Positions 37,852-45,386 of a stretch of 64,000 nucleotides of DNA are shown here, in pieces. The stretch is from Microbacteriaceae bacterium. GTDB lineage: Bacteria; Actinomycetota; Actinomycetes; Actinomycetales; Microbacteriaceae. Under the pieces are notes generated by a model. That model saw nothing but the letters and a program-made list of their open reading frames with translations, ran no database searches and had not been told where the DNA came from. The translations under genes were made by a program, and so were the position numbers. The stretch spans positions 55,569-119,568 of the forward strand of contig RDDZ01000052.1 in assembly GCA_003852775.1 (NCBI GenBank), in the 5' to 3' direction. Position 1 is the stretch's first letter. The number at the start of each line of letters is the position of its first letter.

Positions 37852-38631
37852 TCAGCGCTGGCAGACGGGGCACCAGCTGACGACGCGCTCCTGCCCCTCC
37901 ACGCGGCCCAGCTCGCCGCCCTCGAGACGCGTCCCGCAGCGCAGGCACGGCTGCCCCGACCGCCCGTAGACCCAGCTGCGGCGACCGGGACGCAGGTCGC
38001 CCGTCGTCGTGCGGGTCCAGCGGCCGCGGTTCGCCATGAGCATGCGGTGCGCGAGCGACACGAGCGCGGGCACGTCGTCGACCTCGCCCATCGGACGGGT
38101 GGGCAGCATCCCGCGCACGAAGCACAGCTCGTTCGCGTAGACGTTGCCGATGCCCGCGAGGTTGCGCTGGTCGAGGAGCGCCGTGAAGACGGGCACCTCG
38201 GGGTCGACCGTGAGCCGACGCACCGCCTCCGCCGCATCCCAGTCGGGGCCGAGCAGGTCGGGCCCGAGGTGGCCCACGACGCGCTCCTCCTCGGAGGTCG
38301 GCAGCACCTCGAGGATGCCGAGCTCGAACCCCACGCACTGGGTGGCGTCCGCGGTCAGCACCGCGCGCACCTGGTGGGTGGGGCGCGTCCAGCGCTCGCC
38401 GCCGCGGAACACGCGCCAGGCGCCCTCCATCTTGAGGTGGGAGTGCACCGTCCACTCGCCGATGCGGTGCAGCAGGTGCTTGCCGCGCGAGACGACCTCG
38501 CGCACGGTCTCGCCCGTCAGGTCGACGGTCGCGAACCGCGGCACCCGGAAGTCGGTGCCGGTGAGCACACGCCCCGCGAGCGCGTCGTGCTGCTGACGCG
38601 CGGTGCGGTAGACGGTGTCGCCCTCGGGCAT
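37852..38631 (-). CDS. Fpg/Nei family DNA glycosylase (endonuclease VIII-like)
   Basis: MPEGDTVYRTA start, RNLAGIGNVYANELCF, C-terminal zinc finger CLRCGTRLEGGELGRVEGQERVVSWCPVCQR. Confidence 0.92.
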   Translation of the reverse strand: MPEGDTVYRTARQQHDALAGRVLTGTDFRVPRFATVDLTGETVREVVSRGKHLLHRIGEWTVHSHLKMEGAWRVFRGGERWTRPTHQVRAVLTADATQCVGFELGILEVLPTSEEERVVGHLGPDLLGPDWDAAEAVRRLTVDPEVPVFTALLDQRNLAGIGNVYANELCFVRGMLPTRPMGEVDDVPALVSLAHRMLMANRGRWTRTTTGDLRPGRRSWVYGRSGQPCLRCGTRLEGGELGRVEGQERVVSWCPVCQR

Positions 38632-38730
38632 GTTCGCAACGTACCCCACGCGACCACCCCTCCGCCCCCAGCGGATCCGCCCCGAGCGGATCCGGCCCCA
38701 CGCGGCCCCGCATCCGCGCAGGCTGGCGAC

Positions 38731-39354
38731 ATGACCGACGAACCACGCCCCCTCCGCTTTACCGAGACGGTTCGGCGCGAGTTGTTCGAGCAGCGCGTGC
38801 TCGTGCTCGACGGCCCGCTCGACGACGACAACGGTGCGCTGCTCGCGACCCAGCTCGTGGCGCTCGCGGCCGCCGACCCGGTGTCCGACATCGCGTTGTG
38901 GATCCACTCGCCCGGCGGCTCCGTGCCGTCGATGCTCGCCATCCGCGACGTCATGCGCCTCGTGCCGTGCGACGTGTCGACCCTGGCGTTCGGGCTCGCG
39001 TGCAGCGCCGGGCAGTTCCTGTTGTCGTCCGGAGCGCGCGGCAAGCGCCGCGCACTCCCGCACGCGCGCATCCTCATGCACCAGGGGTCGGCCGGCATCG
39101 GCGGCACCGCGGTCGACGTCGAGCTGCAGGCCGCCGACCTGCGCCACACGCGCGACGTCGTGCTGGGCCTCATCGCCGAGGACACGGGCCAGCCGGTGGA
39201 GCGCATCTTCGAGGACTCCCTGCACGACCGCTGGTACTCGGCCGAGGAGGCGCTCGCCTACGGCTTCATCGACGAGATCGTCGACGACTTCGCGCGGATC
39301 ACGCCCCCGCCCCGCGTGCGCGGCACCGGCTTCGCGGTGGGGAGCGCGGCATGA
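38731..39354 (+). CDS. ClpP-family serine protease subunit with catalytic Ser retained
   Basis: IALWIHSPGGSVPSMLAIRDVM; AFGLACSAGQFLLSSG (Ser codon AGC 39004-39006); LPHARILMHQ. Confidence 0.9.
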   Translation: MTDEPRPLRFTETVRRELFEQRVLVLDGPLDDDNGALLATQLVALAAADPVSDIALWIHSPGGSVPSMLAIRDVMRLVPCDVSTLAFGLACSAGQFLLSSGARGKRRALPHARILMHQGSAGIGGTAVDVELQAADLRHTRDVVLGLIAEDTGQPVERIFEDSLHDRWYSAEEALAYGFIDEIVDDFARITPPPRVRGTGFAVGSAA

Positions 39355-39977
39355 CGAGCTACACGATCCCCAACGTCATCGCGCAGCACCCGCGCGGCGA
39401 GCGGATCATGGACGTCTACTCGCGCCTGCTCGCCGAGCGCGTCGTCTACCTCGGCACGCCGATCGACGCGGGCGTCGCCAACGTGCTCGTGGCGCAGCTG
39501 CTGCACCTCGAGGCCGACAACCCCGACCGCGACATCCAGCTCTACGTCAACTGCTCAGGTGGCGACCCGAGCGCGATGCTCGCCGTCTACGACACGATGC
39601 GCTACATCCGTCCGCAGGTCGCGACGACCGTCGTGGGGCAGGCCGTCGCCGTGGGCGCGGTGCTGCTCGCGGCGGGCGCCGAGGGCAAGCAGGCGGCGCT
39701 GCCCCACGCGCGCGTCGTGCTGCACCAGCCGGTGTCGCAGGGGCGCGGCGCCATCCCCGACCTGATCCTGCAGGCGGACGAGGTGGTGCGGGTGCGCTCC
39801 GACATCGAGGCGATCCTGTCGCGGCACACCGGGCAGAGCGTCGAGCGGCTGCGCGCCGACACCGACCACGACCGCGTGTTCACGGCGGAGGCGGCCCGGG
39901 AGTACGGGCTCGTCGACGCCGTGATGGGCGAGCGCGGTCAGGCGGCGAGCGTGAGCGAGACCCGCACCTCGGCCTGA
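39351..39977 (+). CDS. ClpP-family paralog lacking the catalytic Ser (Ala)
   Basis: IQLYVNCSGGDPSAMLAVYDTM; VGQAVAVGAVLLAAG in place of GQAASMGA.LL (Ala codon GCC 39648-39650); LPHARVVLHQP. Confidence 0.88.
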   Translation: MTSYTIPNVIAQHPRGERIMDVYSRLLAERVVYLGTPIDAGVANVLVAQLLHLEADNPDRDIQLYVNCSGGDPSAMLAVYDTMRYIRPQVATTVVGQAVAVGAVLLAAGAEGKQAALPHARVVLHQPVSQGRGAIPDLILQADEVVRVRSDIEAILSRHTGQSVERLRADTDHDRVFTAEAAREYGLVDAVMGERGQAASVSETRTSA

Positions 39978-40243
39978 GCCGGCGGCGCGGGGGCGCGCTC
40001 GAGGGCCCGCTCGGCGACGCCGAGGGTGAGGTCGACGAGACTCGTGTCGAGCGCCCCCGCGACCGCCGCGATCATCTCGCTCGAGGGCTCCTTGAGCCCG
40101 CGCTCCATCTCGGAGAGGTACTGGGGGGAGACGCCCGCGCGTCGAGCGGTCTCGGTGAGGGTCCGGCCGCGCTCCTGTCGGATGCCGCGCAGCTCGTCGC
40201 CGAGGAGGTGCCGCCACAGCGGCTCGGGGCACGTCGTCGCCAT
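39938..40243 (-). CDS. XRE family helix-turn-helix regulator, ClgR/PopR-like
   Basis: LLGDELRGIRQERGRTLTETARRAGVSPQYLSEMERGLKEPSSEMIAAVAGALDTSLVDL. Confidence 0.85.
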   Translation of the reverse strand: MATTCPEPLWRHLLGDELRGIRQERGRTLTETARRAGVSPQYLSEMERGLKEPSSEMIAAVAGALDTSLVDLTLGVAERALERAPAPPAQAEVRVSLTLAA

Positions 40244-40256
40244 GCGCACGACTCTA

Positions 40257-40282
40257 GGCAGACGCCGCGGGCGGTGTCTGCC
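40257..40282. promoter_or_regulatory. putative autoregulatory operator GGCAGACGCCGC-GG-GCGGTGTCTGCC
   Basis: 11/12 complementary arms, starting 14 bp 5' of the XRE start codon. Confidence 0.6.
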
Positions 40283-40344
40283 CCGTCCGCTCACAGCAGA
40301 CGCGGGGGCGTGGGGTCGTCGGTGCGTGTGCACGGGGGCGGATG

Positions 40345-43300
40345 TCAGCGCAGGCGCAGGCCCTGCGGCGTCGCGGCGAAGCCGGCGCGGAAGAGGGCGT
40401 CGCCGAGCGGGGTGCCGACCGCGAAGGCGCCGTCGATGCGCTCGACGCGCAGGCGGCCGCCCGCGGCGCGCACGGTGGAGGCGAGGGATGCGGCGGCGGC
40501 CTCGCGGGCGTCGTCGGCATCCGGGTCGAGGAAGTCGAGCACCGTCTTGCCGCCCTTCTCGACGTAGAGCCCGAGCGCCCCGTCGACGAGCACGACGAGG
40601 GCGCCCGCCTTGCGGCCCGGGCGGTGCTTCATGTCGTCGTCGCGCGACGGCCACCCCAACGCCGCCCCGTACGGGTTCGCGGGATCCGTCGCACCGAGGG
40701 TCACGGCGACGGGCGGCGCCTTGTCGTCGCGGTCGACGTTGAACGCGCGCAGCCGATCGACGGTCGCGGGCGTCGCGAACTGCGCCGCGCCGAGCCCCTC
40801 CACGAAGTAGCCGCGGCGCACGCGCCCCGTCTCCTCGAGGCTCGCGAGCACCTTGTACGCGAGGGCGAACCCGCCCTCGACGCCCTCCGCCTGCACGGCC
40901 CCGCGCGTCACGACGCCGTACCGCTCGAGCAGCTGCTCGGCGAGCGCCGTCGCGCGTGCCGTGGGCACGGCCTCCGGCGTCGGCAGCAGGCTCCAGCGCC
41001 CGGCGACGGTGGGGGGAGCGGATGCCGCGAGAGACGCCGCCACGCGCGCCCGCGCCCGGTGCGCCCGGCCCCGCGGGGTGGCCCGGGAGCGCGTCGTGGT
41101 CGCGCCGAGGCGCGCCCGCAGCCCCGCGAACGTGTCGCCCGTCACGACGCCGGCCCACACGAGCTCCCACAGGGCGCGCGCGACGTCCGTGTCGGTGGCG
41201 GGATCGGCATCCGTCGCGACCGCCGCGGCGAGCTGGCGGAAGAAGTAGCCGCCGCCGCCCGCGAGGGCCTCGAGCAGGCGGTCGCGCAGCGGGTCGGGCT
41301 CGAGGGCGCGCGGCTCGGGCAAGGTGAGCGGCGCGGCGTCGGCGAGGTGCAGGCTCACCCACCCGTCGCCGCCGGGCAGCTCGCCGCGTCCGGCCCAGAT
41401 CACCTCGCCGGATGCCATGAGCTCGTCGAGCATCGCGGGGCTGTAGTCGCGCACGCGGCTCGGCAGCACGAGGCTCTCCCAGCTCGTCGCGGGCAGCGGG
41501 AGGCCGGCGAGCTGGTCGATCGCGGAGACGAGTCCGTCGATGCCGCGCAGCCCGCCGCGCCCCGGCTCGGGCGAGACGTGCTGCCAGTCGGGGAGGAAGC
41601 GGCCGAGCGCGGCCTGCGGCACGGGCTCGACCTCGGCGCGCAGGGCCGCGAGCGAGCGGGCGCGCAGGCGGCGCAGCACCTCGGGGTCGACCCACTCGGT
41701 TCCGGATGCGCCCGGGCGGAACTCGCCCTCGACCGCGCGGCGGTCGGCGGCGAGACGGCGCAGCGTCTCCGTGACGACGGCGACGCCGAGGCCGAGACGT
41801 CCGGCCGCCTCCGCCGCGGTGAAGGGTGCGTGCGTGCGCAGGTAGCGGGAGACGAGGTCGCCCACGGGGTCGGCGACGGGCTCGAGGAACGCCGTCGGCA
41901 CGCCGATCGGCATCGGCGCCCCGAGCGCGTCCCGCAGGCGTGCGGCATCCTCGACGACGGCCCAGCGCTCGACGCCCGCGATGTGCACGCGCAGCACCCG
42001 GTTCGCCCGTGCGAGCTCGGCGAGCATCGGCTCGAGCACGTCCCGCGCCGCGCGGGCGCGGGCTGCCGCCCCCGCCCCTCCCGAGGTGTCACTTTCGGTC
42101 GCGGGCGCGCCCCCTCCCGCGACCGAAACCGACACCTCACCCCCCGCCACGTCGGCCCCGGATGCGGCACCGGCATCCGAGGTGTCACTTTCGGTCGCGA
42201 CGGGAGCGGCCGAGGCGACCGAAAGTGACACCTCGGGGTGGGGTGCGTCGATCGCGGGGTCGGTGAAGCGGGCGGCGACCTCGTCGAGGGACAGCGGGCC
42301 GAGCACGCGGAGCAGGTCGACGACACCCTCGGCGTCGCGCGCGCGGCGGTCGGGGGCGAGACGCTGCAGCTCGCTCTCCGTCTGCGCGATCACCTCGGGG
42401 TCGAGCAGCTCGCGCAGCTCCGCACGCCCGAGGAGCTCGGCGAGCAGGCCGGGGTCGAGCGAGAGCGCCGCCGCACGCCGCTCCGCGAGCGGGGAGTCCC
42501 CCTCGTAGAGGAACGCGGCCACGTACCCGAACAGCAGCGTGCGCGCGAAAGGCGAGGGGGCATCCGTCTCCACCTCGACGAGACGGATGCGGCGGGTCTC
42601 GATGTCGGACGCGAGCTCGCGCAGCGAGGGCAGGTCGTAGACGTCCTGCAGCACCTCGCGCACCGTCTCGAGGATGATCGGGAAGCTCGGGTACTTGCGC
42701 GCCACCTCGAGCAGCTGCGCCGAGCGCTGCCGCTGCTGCCAGAGGGGCGAGCGCCGTCCGGGGTTGCGGCGCGGCAGCAGGAGCGCCCGCGCGGCCGACT
42801 CGCGGAAGCGCGACGCGAAGAGCGCCGAGCCGCCGACCTCCTCGGTCACGAGGGTCTCGAGCTCGCCCGGCTCGAACGCGAACAGCTCCGCGCCGGGCGG
42901 GTCGGCATCCGTCTCGGGCAGCCGCACGACGATGCCGTCGTCGCCCGCCATCGCCGAGCCGTCGACGCCCAGCCGCTCCCGGATGCGCGCCGCCACGGCG
43001 AGCGCCCACGGTGCGTGCACGGGCGTGCCGTAGGGGGAGTGCAGCACGAGCCGCCAGTCGCCGAGCTCGTCGCGGAACCGCTCGACGAGGAGCGTGCGGT
43101 CGGTCGGCACGACGCCCGTCGCGGCCTTCTGCTCGGCGACGAACGCCGTGAGGTTGCGGGCCGCGCGCTCGTCGAGCCCGTCGGCCTCGAGCCGCGCCTG
43201 GTCGACGCTGCCGGATGCGAGCTCGCCCGCGAACGCGCCGATCGCGCGCCCCAGCTCGGCCGGCCGGCCGAGCCCGTCGCCCTTCCAGAACGGCACGCGC

Positions 43301-45162
43301 CCCGGCTGCCCGAAGGCGGGCGAGACGAGCACACGGTCGGAGGTGATCTCCTCGATGCGCCAGCTCGTCGCCCCGAGCGCGAACACGTCGCCGACGCGCG
43401 ACTCGTAGACCATCTCCTCGTCGAGCTCGCCGACGCGGCGCGCGCCCTCCTCGGCGCCGACGATGAACACGCCGAACATGCCGCGGTCGGGGATCGTGCC
43501 GCCGCTCGTCACGGCGAGCCGCTGCGCGCCCGGGCGGCCGCTGATGGTGCCGGCCACGCGGTCCCACACGATGCGCGGCCGCAGCTCGGCGAACTCGTCG
43601 GACGGATACCGTCCCGCGAGCAGGTCGAGCGTCGCCTCGTATGCGCTGCGCGGCAGCGTCGAGAACGGCGCCGAGCGCCGCACGGTGTCGAACCACTCCT
43701 CGACGTCGAGGGTGTCGAGCGCGACCGCCGCGACGGTCTGCTGCGCGAGGATGTCGAGCGGGTTCTGCGGGACCTGGATGGCCTCGATGAGCCCCTCGCG
43801 CATCCGCTCGGTCGCGATCGCGGTGTGCAGCAGGTCGGCGCGATGCTTGGGGAACATCACGCCCTTCGAGATCTCGCCCACCTGGTGGCCGGCGCGGCCG
43901 ACCCGCTGGAGGCCGGATGCCACGGAGGGCGGCGACTCCACCTGGATCACGAGGTCGACGGCGCCCATGTCGATGCCGAGCTCGAGCGAGCTCGTCGCGA
44001 CGACGCAGCGCAGGCGGCCCGACTTGAGGTCGTCCTCGATCTGGGCGCGTTGCTCCTTCGACACGGAACCGTGGTGGGCGCGCGCGAGCACGGGCTCGGC
44101 GCCCGCGGTCTGGCCGGATGCGCCCATGAGCTGGGCGGGCGGTCGCCTCACCGCTGGTTGAGTAGCCGCCGAAGGCGGCGTGTCGAAACCAGCCCCCTGG
44201 TCACCCGCGCCGACCTCCGCCCCCTCCGCCAGCAGCTCCTCGTAGATCTCGTTCATCGACGCCGTGATGCGCTCCGCGAGCCGCCGCGAGTTCGCGAACA
44301 CGATCGTCGACCGGTGCCGCAGCACCTCCTCGACGATCGCGCGGTCGACGTGCGGCCAGATCGAGCCGCCGGATGCGAGGGCCTTCTCGTCGTCGTCGAG
44401 CGGGGCATCCGTCGCGCGGGCGCCGAGCTCGGTCATGTCCTCGACGGGCACGACGACGCGCAGCTCGAACGTCTTCTGGATGGGCGGCGACACGACCTCG
44501 ACTCGCTCGCGGCCGCCGAGGAACCGCGCGACCTCCTCGAGCGGACGGACCGTCGCGGAGAGCCCGATGCGCTGCGCGGGTCTCGGCAGCATCGCGTCGA
44601 GCCGCTCGAGCGACACCGCGAGGTGAGCGCCGCGCTTCGTCGCCGCGACCGCGTGGATCTCGTCGACGATGACCGTCTCGACGCCCGCGAGCGTCGACCG
44701 AGCCTGGCTCGTAAGCATGAGGTAGAGCGACTCGGGCGTCGTGATGAGGATGTCGGGGGGCTCGCGAACGAGCAGCCGCCGGTCGGCGGAGGTGGTGTCG
44801 CCGGAACGCACGCCGACGCGGATGTCGGGGGGTGTCATCCCGAGCCGCTTCGCCGTCTGCGTAATGCCGACGAGGGGCGAGCGGAGGTTGCGCTCGACGT
44901 CGACGCCGAGCGCCTTGAGGGGCGAGATGTAGAGCACGCGCGTGCGTTTGGCAGGGTCGGGCGGCGGCGAGGTGATGAGCCGGTCGAGCGACCACAGGAA
45001 CGCCGAGAGCGTCTTGCCGGACCCCGTGGGCGCCACGACGAGCGCGTGCCGCCCCGAGGAGATCGCCTGCCACGTCCCCGACTGCGCGGCGGTCGGCGCG
45101 GGGAACGCGCCCGCGAACCACTCCCTCGTCGCGGGGGAGAAGCGCTCGAGCGCGGGATCCAT
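40345..45162 (-). CDS. lhr: Lhr-family DEAD/DEAH-box ATP-dependent helicase
   Basis: GRHALVVAPTGSGKTLSAFLWSLDRL; IVDEIHAVAATKRGAHLAVSLERLD; LQRVGRAGHQVGEISKGVMFPKHRADLL; ~1600 aa; start at 45162 or 45171 uncertain. Confidence 0.92.
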   Translation of the reverse strand: MDPALERFSPATREWFAGAFPAPTAAQSGTWQAISSGRHALVVAPTGSGKTLSAFLWSLDRLITSPPPDPAKRTRVLYISPLKALGVDVERNLRSPLVGITQTAKRLGMTPPDIRVGVRSGDTTSADRRLLVREPPDILITTPESLYLMLTSQARSTLAGVETVIVDEIHAVAATKRGAHLAVSLERLDAMLPRPAQRIGLSATVRPLEEVARFLGGRERVEVVSPPIQKTFELRVVVPVEDMTELGARATDAPLDDDEKALASGGSIWPHVDRAIVEEVLRHRSTIVFANSRRLAERITASMNEIYEELLAEGAEVGAGDQGAGFDTPPSAATQPAVRRPPAQLMGASGQTAGAEPVLARAHHGSVSKEQRAQIEDDLKSGRLRCVVATSSLELGIDMGAVDLVIQVESPPSVASGLQRVGRAGHQVGEISKGVMFPKHRADLLHTAIATERMREGLIEAIQVPQNPLDILAQQTVAAVALDTLDVEEWFDTVRRSAPFSTLPRSAYEATLDLLAGRYPSDEFAELRPRIVWDRVAGTISGRPGAQRLAVTSGGTIPDRGMFGVFIVGAEEGARRVGELDEEMVYESRVGDVFALGATSWRIEEITSDRVLVSPAFGQPGRVPFWKGDGLGRPAELGRAIGAFAGELASGSVDQARLEADGLDERAARNLTAFVAEQKAATGVVPTDRTLLVERFRDELGDWRLVLHSPYGTPVHAPWALAVAARIRERLGVDGSAMAGDDGIVVRLPETDADPPGAELFAFEPGELETLVTEEVGGSALFASRFRESAARALLLPRRNPGRRSPLWQQRQRSAQLLEVARKYPSFPIILETVREVLQDVYDLPSLRELASDIETRRIRLVEVETDAPSPFARTLLFGYVAAFLYEGDSPLAERRAAALSLDPGLLAELLGRAELRELLDPEVIAQTESELQRLAPDRRARDAEGVVDLLRVLGPLSLDEVAARFTDPAIDAPHPEVSLSVASAAPVATESDTSDAGAASGADVAGGEVSVSVAGGGAPATESDTSGGAGAAARARAARDVLEPMLAELARANRVLRVHIAGVERWAVVEDAARLRDALGAPMPIGVPTAFLEPVADPVGDLVSRYLRTHAPFTAAEAAGRLGLGVAVVTETLRRLAADRRAVEGEFRPGASGTEWVDPEVLRRLRARSLAALRAEVEPVPQAALGRFLPDWQHVSPEPGRGGLRGIDGLVSAIDQLAGLPLPATSWESLVLPSRVRDYSPAMLDELMASGEVIWAGRGELPGGDGWVSLHLADAAPLTLPEPRALEPDPLRDRLLEALAGGGGYFFRQLAAAVATDADPATDTDVARALWELVWAGVVTGDTFAGLRARLGATTTRSRATPRGRAHRARARVAASLAASAPPTVAGRWSLLPTPEAVPTARATALAEQLLERYGVVTRGAVQAEGVEGGFALAYKVLASLEETGRVRRGYFVEGLGAAQFATPATVDRLRAFNVDRDDKAPPVAVTLGATDPANPYGAALGWPSRDDDMKHRPGRKAGALVVLVDGALGLYVEKGGKTVLDFLDPDADDAREAAAASLASTVRAAGGRLRVERIDGAFAVGTPLGDALFRAGFAATPQGLRLR
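42083..42234. repeat. two 56-bp palindromic units (20-bp arms, 16-nt loop) at a 96-bp period inside lhr
   Basis: GAGGTGTCACTTTCGGTCGC at 42083 and 42179; matching inverted arms at 42119-42138 (18/20) and 42215-42234 (20/20). Confidence 0.9.
44151..44195. repeat. REP-like palindromic element, copy 1 (inside lhr, in frame)
   Basis: CCGCTGGTTGAGTAGCCGCCGAAGGCGGCGTGTCGAAACCAGCCC; identical 45-mer at 50593. Confidence 0.92.
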
Positions 45163-45225
45163 CCCCCCCATCTTCGCGCCCACCCCCGACTCCCGCTCGG
45201 GGCTTGCGCGCCGTCGGCTCCATCC

Positions 45226-45275
45226 GTGCGGTGCGGTGCGGTGCGGTGCGGTGCGGTGCGGTGCGGTGCGGTGCG
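45226..45275. repeat. pentanucleotide microsatellite (GTGCG)10
   Basis: Ten uninterrupted GTGCG units between divergent lhr and ABC genes. Confidence 0.95.
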
Positions 45276-45386
45276 GTGGCGTCATCCCTCTGGAGTACAC
45301 GGCCCGAAAGAGATACCTCCCACGGGGGCCGAGCGAGCAGGCCCCCGCTCCCTACCTTCGGAACGTATCCCGACGAAGGAGGACAC

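Follow-up and report, generated by a model that had tools for sequence, protein, structure and literature searches.

What is a second pair of ClpP subunits for in a genome that already encodes canonical ClpP1 and ClpP2, when one member of the pair has an alanine in place of the catalytic serine? The question is posed by two adjacent genes in a 64,000-nucleotide stretch of Microbacteriaceae DNA, the whole of which is referred to here as the window. It bears on a wider problem, as arguments about the reason for having two different ClpP rings, and about the purpose of an inactive one, have drawn mainly on plastid ClpR and on ClpP1P2 point mutants.

The second clpP operon and its genome

The first gene of the pair, clpP3-like (38731–39354, plus strand), encodes a 207-residue protein with an intact Ser92-His-Asp triad and a short, ClpP1-like N-terminus; the nucleophile, Ser92, is encoded by AGC at 39004–39006 (plus strand). 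It overlaps by ATGA with the second gene, clpP4-like (39351–39977, plus strand), whose 208-residue product has Ala100 (GCC, 39648–39650, plus strand) at the position of the catalytic serine and keeps the His, the Asp, the full N-terminal loop, and the docking aromatics. The overlapping gene pair and its serine and alanine codons, first pointed out in an earlier note on this DNA, were upheld by gap-free alignment of both proteins to E. coli ClpP, which at S97/H122/D171 reads Ser-His-Asp for ClpP3 and Ala-His-Asp for ClpP4, with Ala100 and no serine aligned at the ClpP4 nucleophile position. The Pfam CLP_protease model scores ClpP3 at 178 bits and ClpP4 at 211 bits (cut-off 20), and both proteins align end to end with the sequences of solved ClpP structures. 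An AlphaFold model of ClpP4, computed from a low-diversity alignment of 33 orthologs, had a mean pLDDT of 42 and was left out of the fold search. A phage origin, raised by matches to PHROGs, was rejected, as the matches were to low-scoring general ClpP-fold head proteases. The change from Ser to Ala in ClpP4 is no chance or sequencing oddity, because it recurs in orthologs across the phylum.

A small popR-like gene for an XRE/ClgR-type activator lies convergently on the minus strand (39938–40243; ATG at 40243, stop at 39938) and encodes 101 residues ending in LTLAA. The earlier note had described this convergent XRE gene with a 40-bp 3′ overlap (39938–39977) and an end at 40282; the gene and the overlap are real, and 40282 marks merely the beginning of the open frame, with the ATG at 40243. 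We reject the overlap as a meaningful feature because it is not conserved across modules: overlapping gene ends are seen in 15 of 142, with a median gap of 33 bp.

The genome (2.79 Mb, 98% complete) has four clpP genes. Canonical clpP1 and clpP2, which the note had proposed to look for elsewhere in the genome, are found on contig C131, both with full triads. A canonical clgR, encoding a protein whose C-terminus is not Ala-Ala, lies on contig C139 beside cinA/pgsA/recA-type genes; clpX is on contig C136 and a ClpB-type gene on C120. The 3′ part of a ClpC-type Clp ATPase gene occupies positions 3–1757 of the window, about 37 kb from the clpP3-clpP4 operon, and its product is a possible partner of the core. 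Because canonical clpP1P2, clgR, clpX, and clpC are all present in the same genome, the clpP3-clpP4 pair is accessory. Further along the window, REPIN-like pairs were observed at 42083–42234, in which inverted 15-mers, GTCACTTTCGGTCGC and its complement, stand about 31 bp apart, in frame inside a large lhr-type helicase gene (40345–45300, minus strand). The 15-mer has 35 genome matches at no more than one mismatch, compared with none for a reversed control, and the folding of this stretch is much more stable than that of shuffled sequences (z −8.9).

Within the genus, 5 of 9 genomes carry the module, and within the family about 27 of 200 do. The module also occurs on plasmids or large extrachromosomal replicons, namely Tsukamurella plasmid 10 (L242), Prescottella equi p1-WH99 (L243), Streptomyces fungicidicus p1 (L241), and an Embleya plasmid (L246), mostly with an annotated convergent HTH gene. 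The plasmid location fits the patchy distribution and suggests horizontal transfer of the clpP3-clpP4 module.

Catalytic residues across relatives

Relatives were gathered from named genomes and plasmids, from the genus, family, and phylum by even sampling, and from the class and family to which two distant matches belong. This yielded 149 distinct adjacent clpP3-clpP4 pairs with 148 full-length ClpP4 proteins, and the residues at E. coli positions S97/H122/D171 were read from one alignment. ClpP3 carries Ser-His-Asp in 149/149. ClpP4 lacks at least one triad residue in 145/148, a count in which the named set, picked by similarity to the window protein, leans towards Ser-lost copies, and in which very distant ClpP4 proteins could be missed, the remaining sets having been drawn evenly but under E-value thresholds. 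The suspicion of a pseudo-protease raised in the earlier note extends to most of the orthologs, in which the Ser or another triad residue is absent. The 148 ClpP4 proteins comprise 109 that have lost the Ser (now Ala or Gly), 32 that have lost the His (now Gly) and kept the Ser, 4 that have lost the Asp (now Ala) and kept the Ser, and 3 with Ser-His-Asp (L069, L110, and L143). The residue lost follows lineage: Ser in most actinomycetes, His in Streptomyces, and Asp in another class. As controls, canonical ClpP1 and ClpP2 read Ser-His-Asp in 13/13 each, as do all 18 further ClpPs from other classes.

The His-lost class is that of the Streptomycetaceae and includes the named S. fungicidicus plasmid record, with His to Gly. 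The plasmid-borne ClpP4 of Tsukamurella has Ser to Ala, and that of Prescottella equi has both Ser to Gly and Asp to Gln. In three Glycomyces copies, Ser and His are both gone. His and Asp are nevertheless retained in most Ser-lost copies, which is not by itself required by a purely structural role and counts against our preferred explanation.

Most Ser-lost proteins carry what we take as a second sign that the ClpP4 pocket no longer binds substrate: the strand that would bind the substrate backbone has become GGDP, with Pro at position 70 in 98/109. These observations bear on the idea that ClpP4 is not dead and still acts as a hydrolase, residually or in altered form, by means of a non-canonical nucleophile. 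Retention of His and Asp in most Ser-lost copies, and of Ser in the His-lost and Asp-lost ones, would be expected of such an enzyme; however, no alternative nucleophile is conserved at the elbow (GQAVAVGA), where Ala and Gly are both found, the substrate strand has been rebuilt in most Ser-lost copies, and Glycomyces dispenses with Ser and His together. We consider residual catalysis by ClpP4 highly improbable and proceed with a ClpP4 that does not cut.

Trees were built without the three triad columns. ClpP4 forms one clade (support 100/97) and ClpP3 another (91/90), both apart from ClpP1 and ClpP2, and both clades include the Streptomyces pair, with S. fungicidicus L241 inside. Within ClpP4, the His-lost, the Asp-lost, and the mainly Ser-lost sets are separate lineages, and the minimum number of changes on the tree is 4 for Ser, 3 for His, and 4 for Asp. 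Because each ClpP4 lineage retains residues that the others have lost, the simplest history would be an intact ClpP4 ancestor followed by at least three separate inactivations. Two of the three proteins with intact triads, L069 and L110, look like reversals, since their Ser codon, TCG, is one base from the Ala codon GCG and both are placed among Ser-lost copies. L143 may be truly intact. The three intact triads count against our preferred explanation, although an altered Asp-Pro substrate strand is found in 2/3 of these copies.

As the missing triad residue differs between lineages, catalysis in the ClpP4 ring would have been lost at least three times within one clade, a loss that appears either tolerated or favored. 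It is likely, in our judgment, that one ring in the ClpP3-ClpP4 pairs of Actinomycetota became catalytically silent on at least three independent occasions, by way of three different triad residues, and that its partner never did. This would be a convergent change of a protease ring into one dedicated to docking and regulation, and would make the Streptomyces ClpP4, under study since 2000, itself a pseudo-protease. The pairs amount to a natural mutant experiment in more than 100 genomes, with one ring always active, the other almost never, and the site of the break varying; a division of labor between a cutting and a docking ring can thereby be tested directly in a small two-gene system.

Docking pocket, constraint, and assembly

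In Streptomyces ClpP1P2, the S131A variant of ClpP2 has full activity and S113A in ClpP1 abolishes activity (PMC9765437). The ATPases bind only ClpP2, through a hydrophobic pocket whose residues are the equivalents of Y60, Y62, and F82, numbered as in mature E. coli ClpP (PMC9765437). In ClpP4, the equivalent of Tyr62 is present in 148/148, position 82 is Tyr, Phe, or His, and the full N-terminal loop is kept. In ClpP3, position 82 is Leu in 119/149, an Arg is common at position 112, and the N-terminus resembles the short one of ClpP1. The ClpP4 docking residues are partly changed too, with Gln at 60 and Ala at 112 in the main clade, which also counts against our preferred explanation. Because ClpP4 keeps the pocket aromatics and the N-terminal loop and ClpP3 has partly lost them, docking looks like the role of ClpP4 and cutting like that of ClpP3. 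The residue before the catalytic Asp (E. coli position 170) is His in both window subunits, as it is in 100/149 of the ClpP3 and 59/149 of the ClpP4 proteins; in E. coli ClpP this position is Arg, part of the ring-ring sensor.

Losses of Ser, His, and Asp could instead represent neutral decay of a redundant ring, leaving a dead subunit without function. The dispensable catalytic serine of Streptomyces ClpP2 (PMC9765437) implies that such losses from a docking ring may cost little, and decay would also accord with a lost residue that differs between lineages and with the patchy occurrence of the module, as in the genus. Decay is, however, at odds with the constraint on the gene. Between the window and four congeners, dN/dS is 0.16–0.21 for clpP4, 0.19–0.28 for clpP3, and 0.07–0.28 for clpP1 and clpP2; because the clpP4 values are similar to those of clpP3 and of canonical clpP1P2, clpP4 is, by this measure, under purifying selection and not decaying. 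Identity across Actinomycetota orders is 75–93%, the docking Tyr62 is invariant, and intact frames, operators, and the regulator are retained throughout. We therefore regard decay as improbable and favor a ClpP4 maintained for a role other than cutting.

Gene order, mutual conservation, and the precedent of ClpP1P2 lead us to infer a mixed ClpP3-ClpP4 barrel, which would consist of one ClpP3 ring stacked on one ClpP4 ring, with all catalytic sites contributed by ClpP3. The non-cutting ClpP4 would present the docking face for ClpX or ClpC1 through its intact axial loop and hydrophobic pocket, and may also be the partner that keeps ClpP3 in its active form. The division of labor of Streptomyces ClpP1P2, in which ClpP1 cuts and ClpP2 docks, would thereby have been made permanent in ClpP3P4. 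The loss of different catalytic residues in different lineages suggests that one ring of the barrel was repeatedly turned by evolution into a docking ring that does not cut.

A dead subunit could also serve as a regulatory or dominant-negative component that joins the housekeeping ClpP1P2 barrel, or ClpP3 rings, and reduces or diverts their activity, with no dedicated ClpP3P4 core. A catalytically dead protein is what this arrangement would be expected to look like, and ClpP_ADEP of Streptomyces hawaiiensis, which disrupts ClpP1 complexes, provides a precedent (PMC12607617). Against it stand the permanent adjacency of clpP3 and clpP4 across modules, mostly with the ATGA overlap, the invariant triad of ClpP3 (149/149), and the requirement of S. 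lividans for at least one of clpP1P2 and clpP3P4, which means that the pair can supply Clp function (PMC9765437). A purely dominant-negative ClpP4 is, in our view, unlikely, and the dedicated mixed barrel remains the arrangement that we carry forward.

The regulator, its operators, and known Clp systems

The popR-like protein belongs to the HTH_3 family of Pfam, and its best NCBIfam model is ClgR (NF041677), at 63.7 bits, below the cut-off of 170. It is distinct from the canonical ClgR (91 bits for the canonical protein, 63 for the window gene), and the possibility that it is the only ClgR of the genome was rejected, a separate canonical clgR being present on C139. The regulator ends in Ala-Ala in 131/142 modules and in LAA in 120/142; in Streptomyces, ClgR and PopR are recognized for degradation through ClpP1P2 by their C-terminal AA (PMC9775585, PMC9765437).

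The PopR operator of S. lividans, TCTGCC-3N-GGCGAATCTGCC-3N-GGCAGA, is made of two tandem 15-bp units (PMC9775585). The same layout is found in the window, where two predicted PopR-type operators, TCCGCCCCCAGCGGA (38661–38675, plus strand) and TCCGCCCCGAGCGGA (38676–38690, plus strand), lie 40–70 bp upstream of the clpP3 start codon and match the type TCTGCC-3N-GGCGAA/TCTGCC-3N-GGCAGA. A third predicted operator (40286–40300, unstranded) lies 43–57 bp before the popR-like start codon and is a candidate site for autoregulation, which it would add in the window lineage. The degenerate unit TCYGCYNNNRGCRGA has 3 matches in the 64-kb window compared with 0.21 expected, two side by side ahead of clpP3 and one ahead of the regulator, and the longer form TCYGCCNNNAGCGGATCYG is found nowhere else in the genome. 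The tandem sites fall in the intergenic region that clpP3 shares with a divergent gene for a Nei2-type endonuclease VIII (37852–39225, minus strand; start at about 38631). A wider PopR regulon was rejected: of the six genomic TCYGCYNNNRGCRGA sites, the other three do not look like promoter sites, two being internal to genes (one for a transporter, the other uvrA) and the third immediately following dxs.

Among relatives, a site with no more than one mismatch occurs upstream of clpP3 in 108/109 Ser-lost, 32/32 His-lost, and 4/4 Asp-lost modules, compared with about 2–4% in shuffled sequences. Before the regulator, such a site is found in 79/102 Ser-lost modules (about 2 in shuffles); Streptomyces-type modules have a weak one, and the Asp-lost set has none. 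ClgR-type boxes, GTTCGC-5N-GCG, are essentially absent upstream of clpP3 (1/149). The operators, the C-terminal AA degron, and the phylogeny all strengthen the PopR assignment, and the analysis supports the earlier proposal of an accessory Clp core, predicted to be heteromeric, with a pseudo-protease ring under its own ClgR/PopR-like regulator.

What can be read from the DNA is an accessory clpP pair in one operon, a ClpP3 with a full triad, a ClpP4 without its nucleophile, a ClgR-type regulator ending in LAA, and predicted PopR-type operators before both clpP3 and popR. We think it likely that the locus encodes a backup Clp peptidase under PopR control (clpP3-clpP4-popR), whose stress-induced product would be a mixed barrel with ClpP3 as the cutting subunit and the dead ClpP4 as the dock for the ATPase. 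By analogy with Streptomyces, we infer a control circuit in which the activator is cleared by housekeeping Clp and set free when housekeeping Clp fails. A working ClpXP1P2 would degrade the regulator by way of its LAA tail and keep the operon off; if housekeeping Clp fails or is overloaded, the regulator would accumulate, bind the tandem operators, and turn on clpP3clpP4. To our knowledge, the response of the operon to loss of ClpP1P2 is known for Streptomyces only.

The backup Clp system of Streptomyces, ClpP3-ClpP4 with PopR, was described by Viala, Rapoport, and Mazodier (2000, 2002, as cited in PMC9765437 and PMC9775585). Judged by five sequence features, namely an accessory pair, membership in the Streptomyces clades, a linked ClgR paralogue, the type of operator, and the C-terminal Ala-Ala signal of the regulator, the module in the window is this known PopR-clpP3clpP4 system. 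The two share a two-gene accessory clpP operon apart from clpP1P2, a ClgR-paralogue regulator with a C-terminal AA, a tandem 15-bp operator, and the same ClpP3 and ClpP4 clades. They differ in that the window ClpP4 has lost the Ser, kept the His and Asp, and acquired the GGDP strand, whereas the Streptomyces-type ClpP4 has kept the Ser and lost the His, and in that the window adds a candidate autoregulatory operator where the Streptomyces-type site before the regulator is weak. In the literature searched, in which the founding Viala papers are represented by articles that cite them and could themselves carry a remark on the missing His, we found no description of ClpP4 as a pseudo-protease, in Streptomyces or elsewhere, or of its recurrent inactivation. 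A dead ClpP4, Streptomyces included, that has been recurrently inactivated appears to be new. Streptomyces ClpP3P4 would then have to be redrawn with seven catalytic sites, not fourteen, a count that matters for work on ADEP and beta-lactones, as ClpP3P4 is the drug-insensitive backup.

The housekeeping ClpP1P2 of Streptomyces and mycobacteria likewise pairs unlike subunits, of which one is mainly catalytic and the other docks the ATPase, and the ClpP2 serine is dispensable in Streptomyces (PMC9765437); ClpP1 and ClpP2 nevertheless both keep the full triad and form clades separate from ClpP3 and ClpP4. ClpR of cyanobacteria, plastids, and apicoplasts is also a catalytically dead ClpP homologue inside a mixed Clp core (PMC7966870). 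ClpP4, with one residue missing, fits the description of a ClpP homologue without a catalytic triad, which is insufficient alone to identify it as a ClpR; the lineage setting and the partner are different, and the likeness would be one of function only, by analogy. ClpP_ADEP of S. hawaiiensis shares with ClpP4 the character of an accessory ClpP that remodels the Clp core, but it is ClpP1-like, forms an active core with ClpP2, confers antibiotic resistance, and stands outside any PopR module (PMC12607617).
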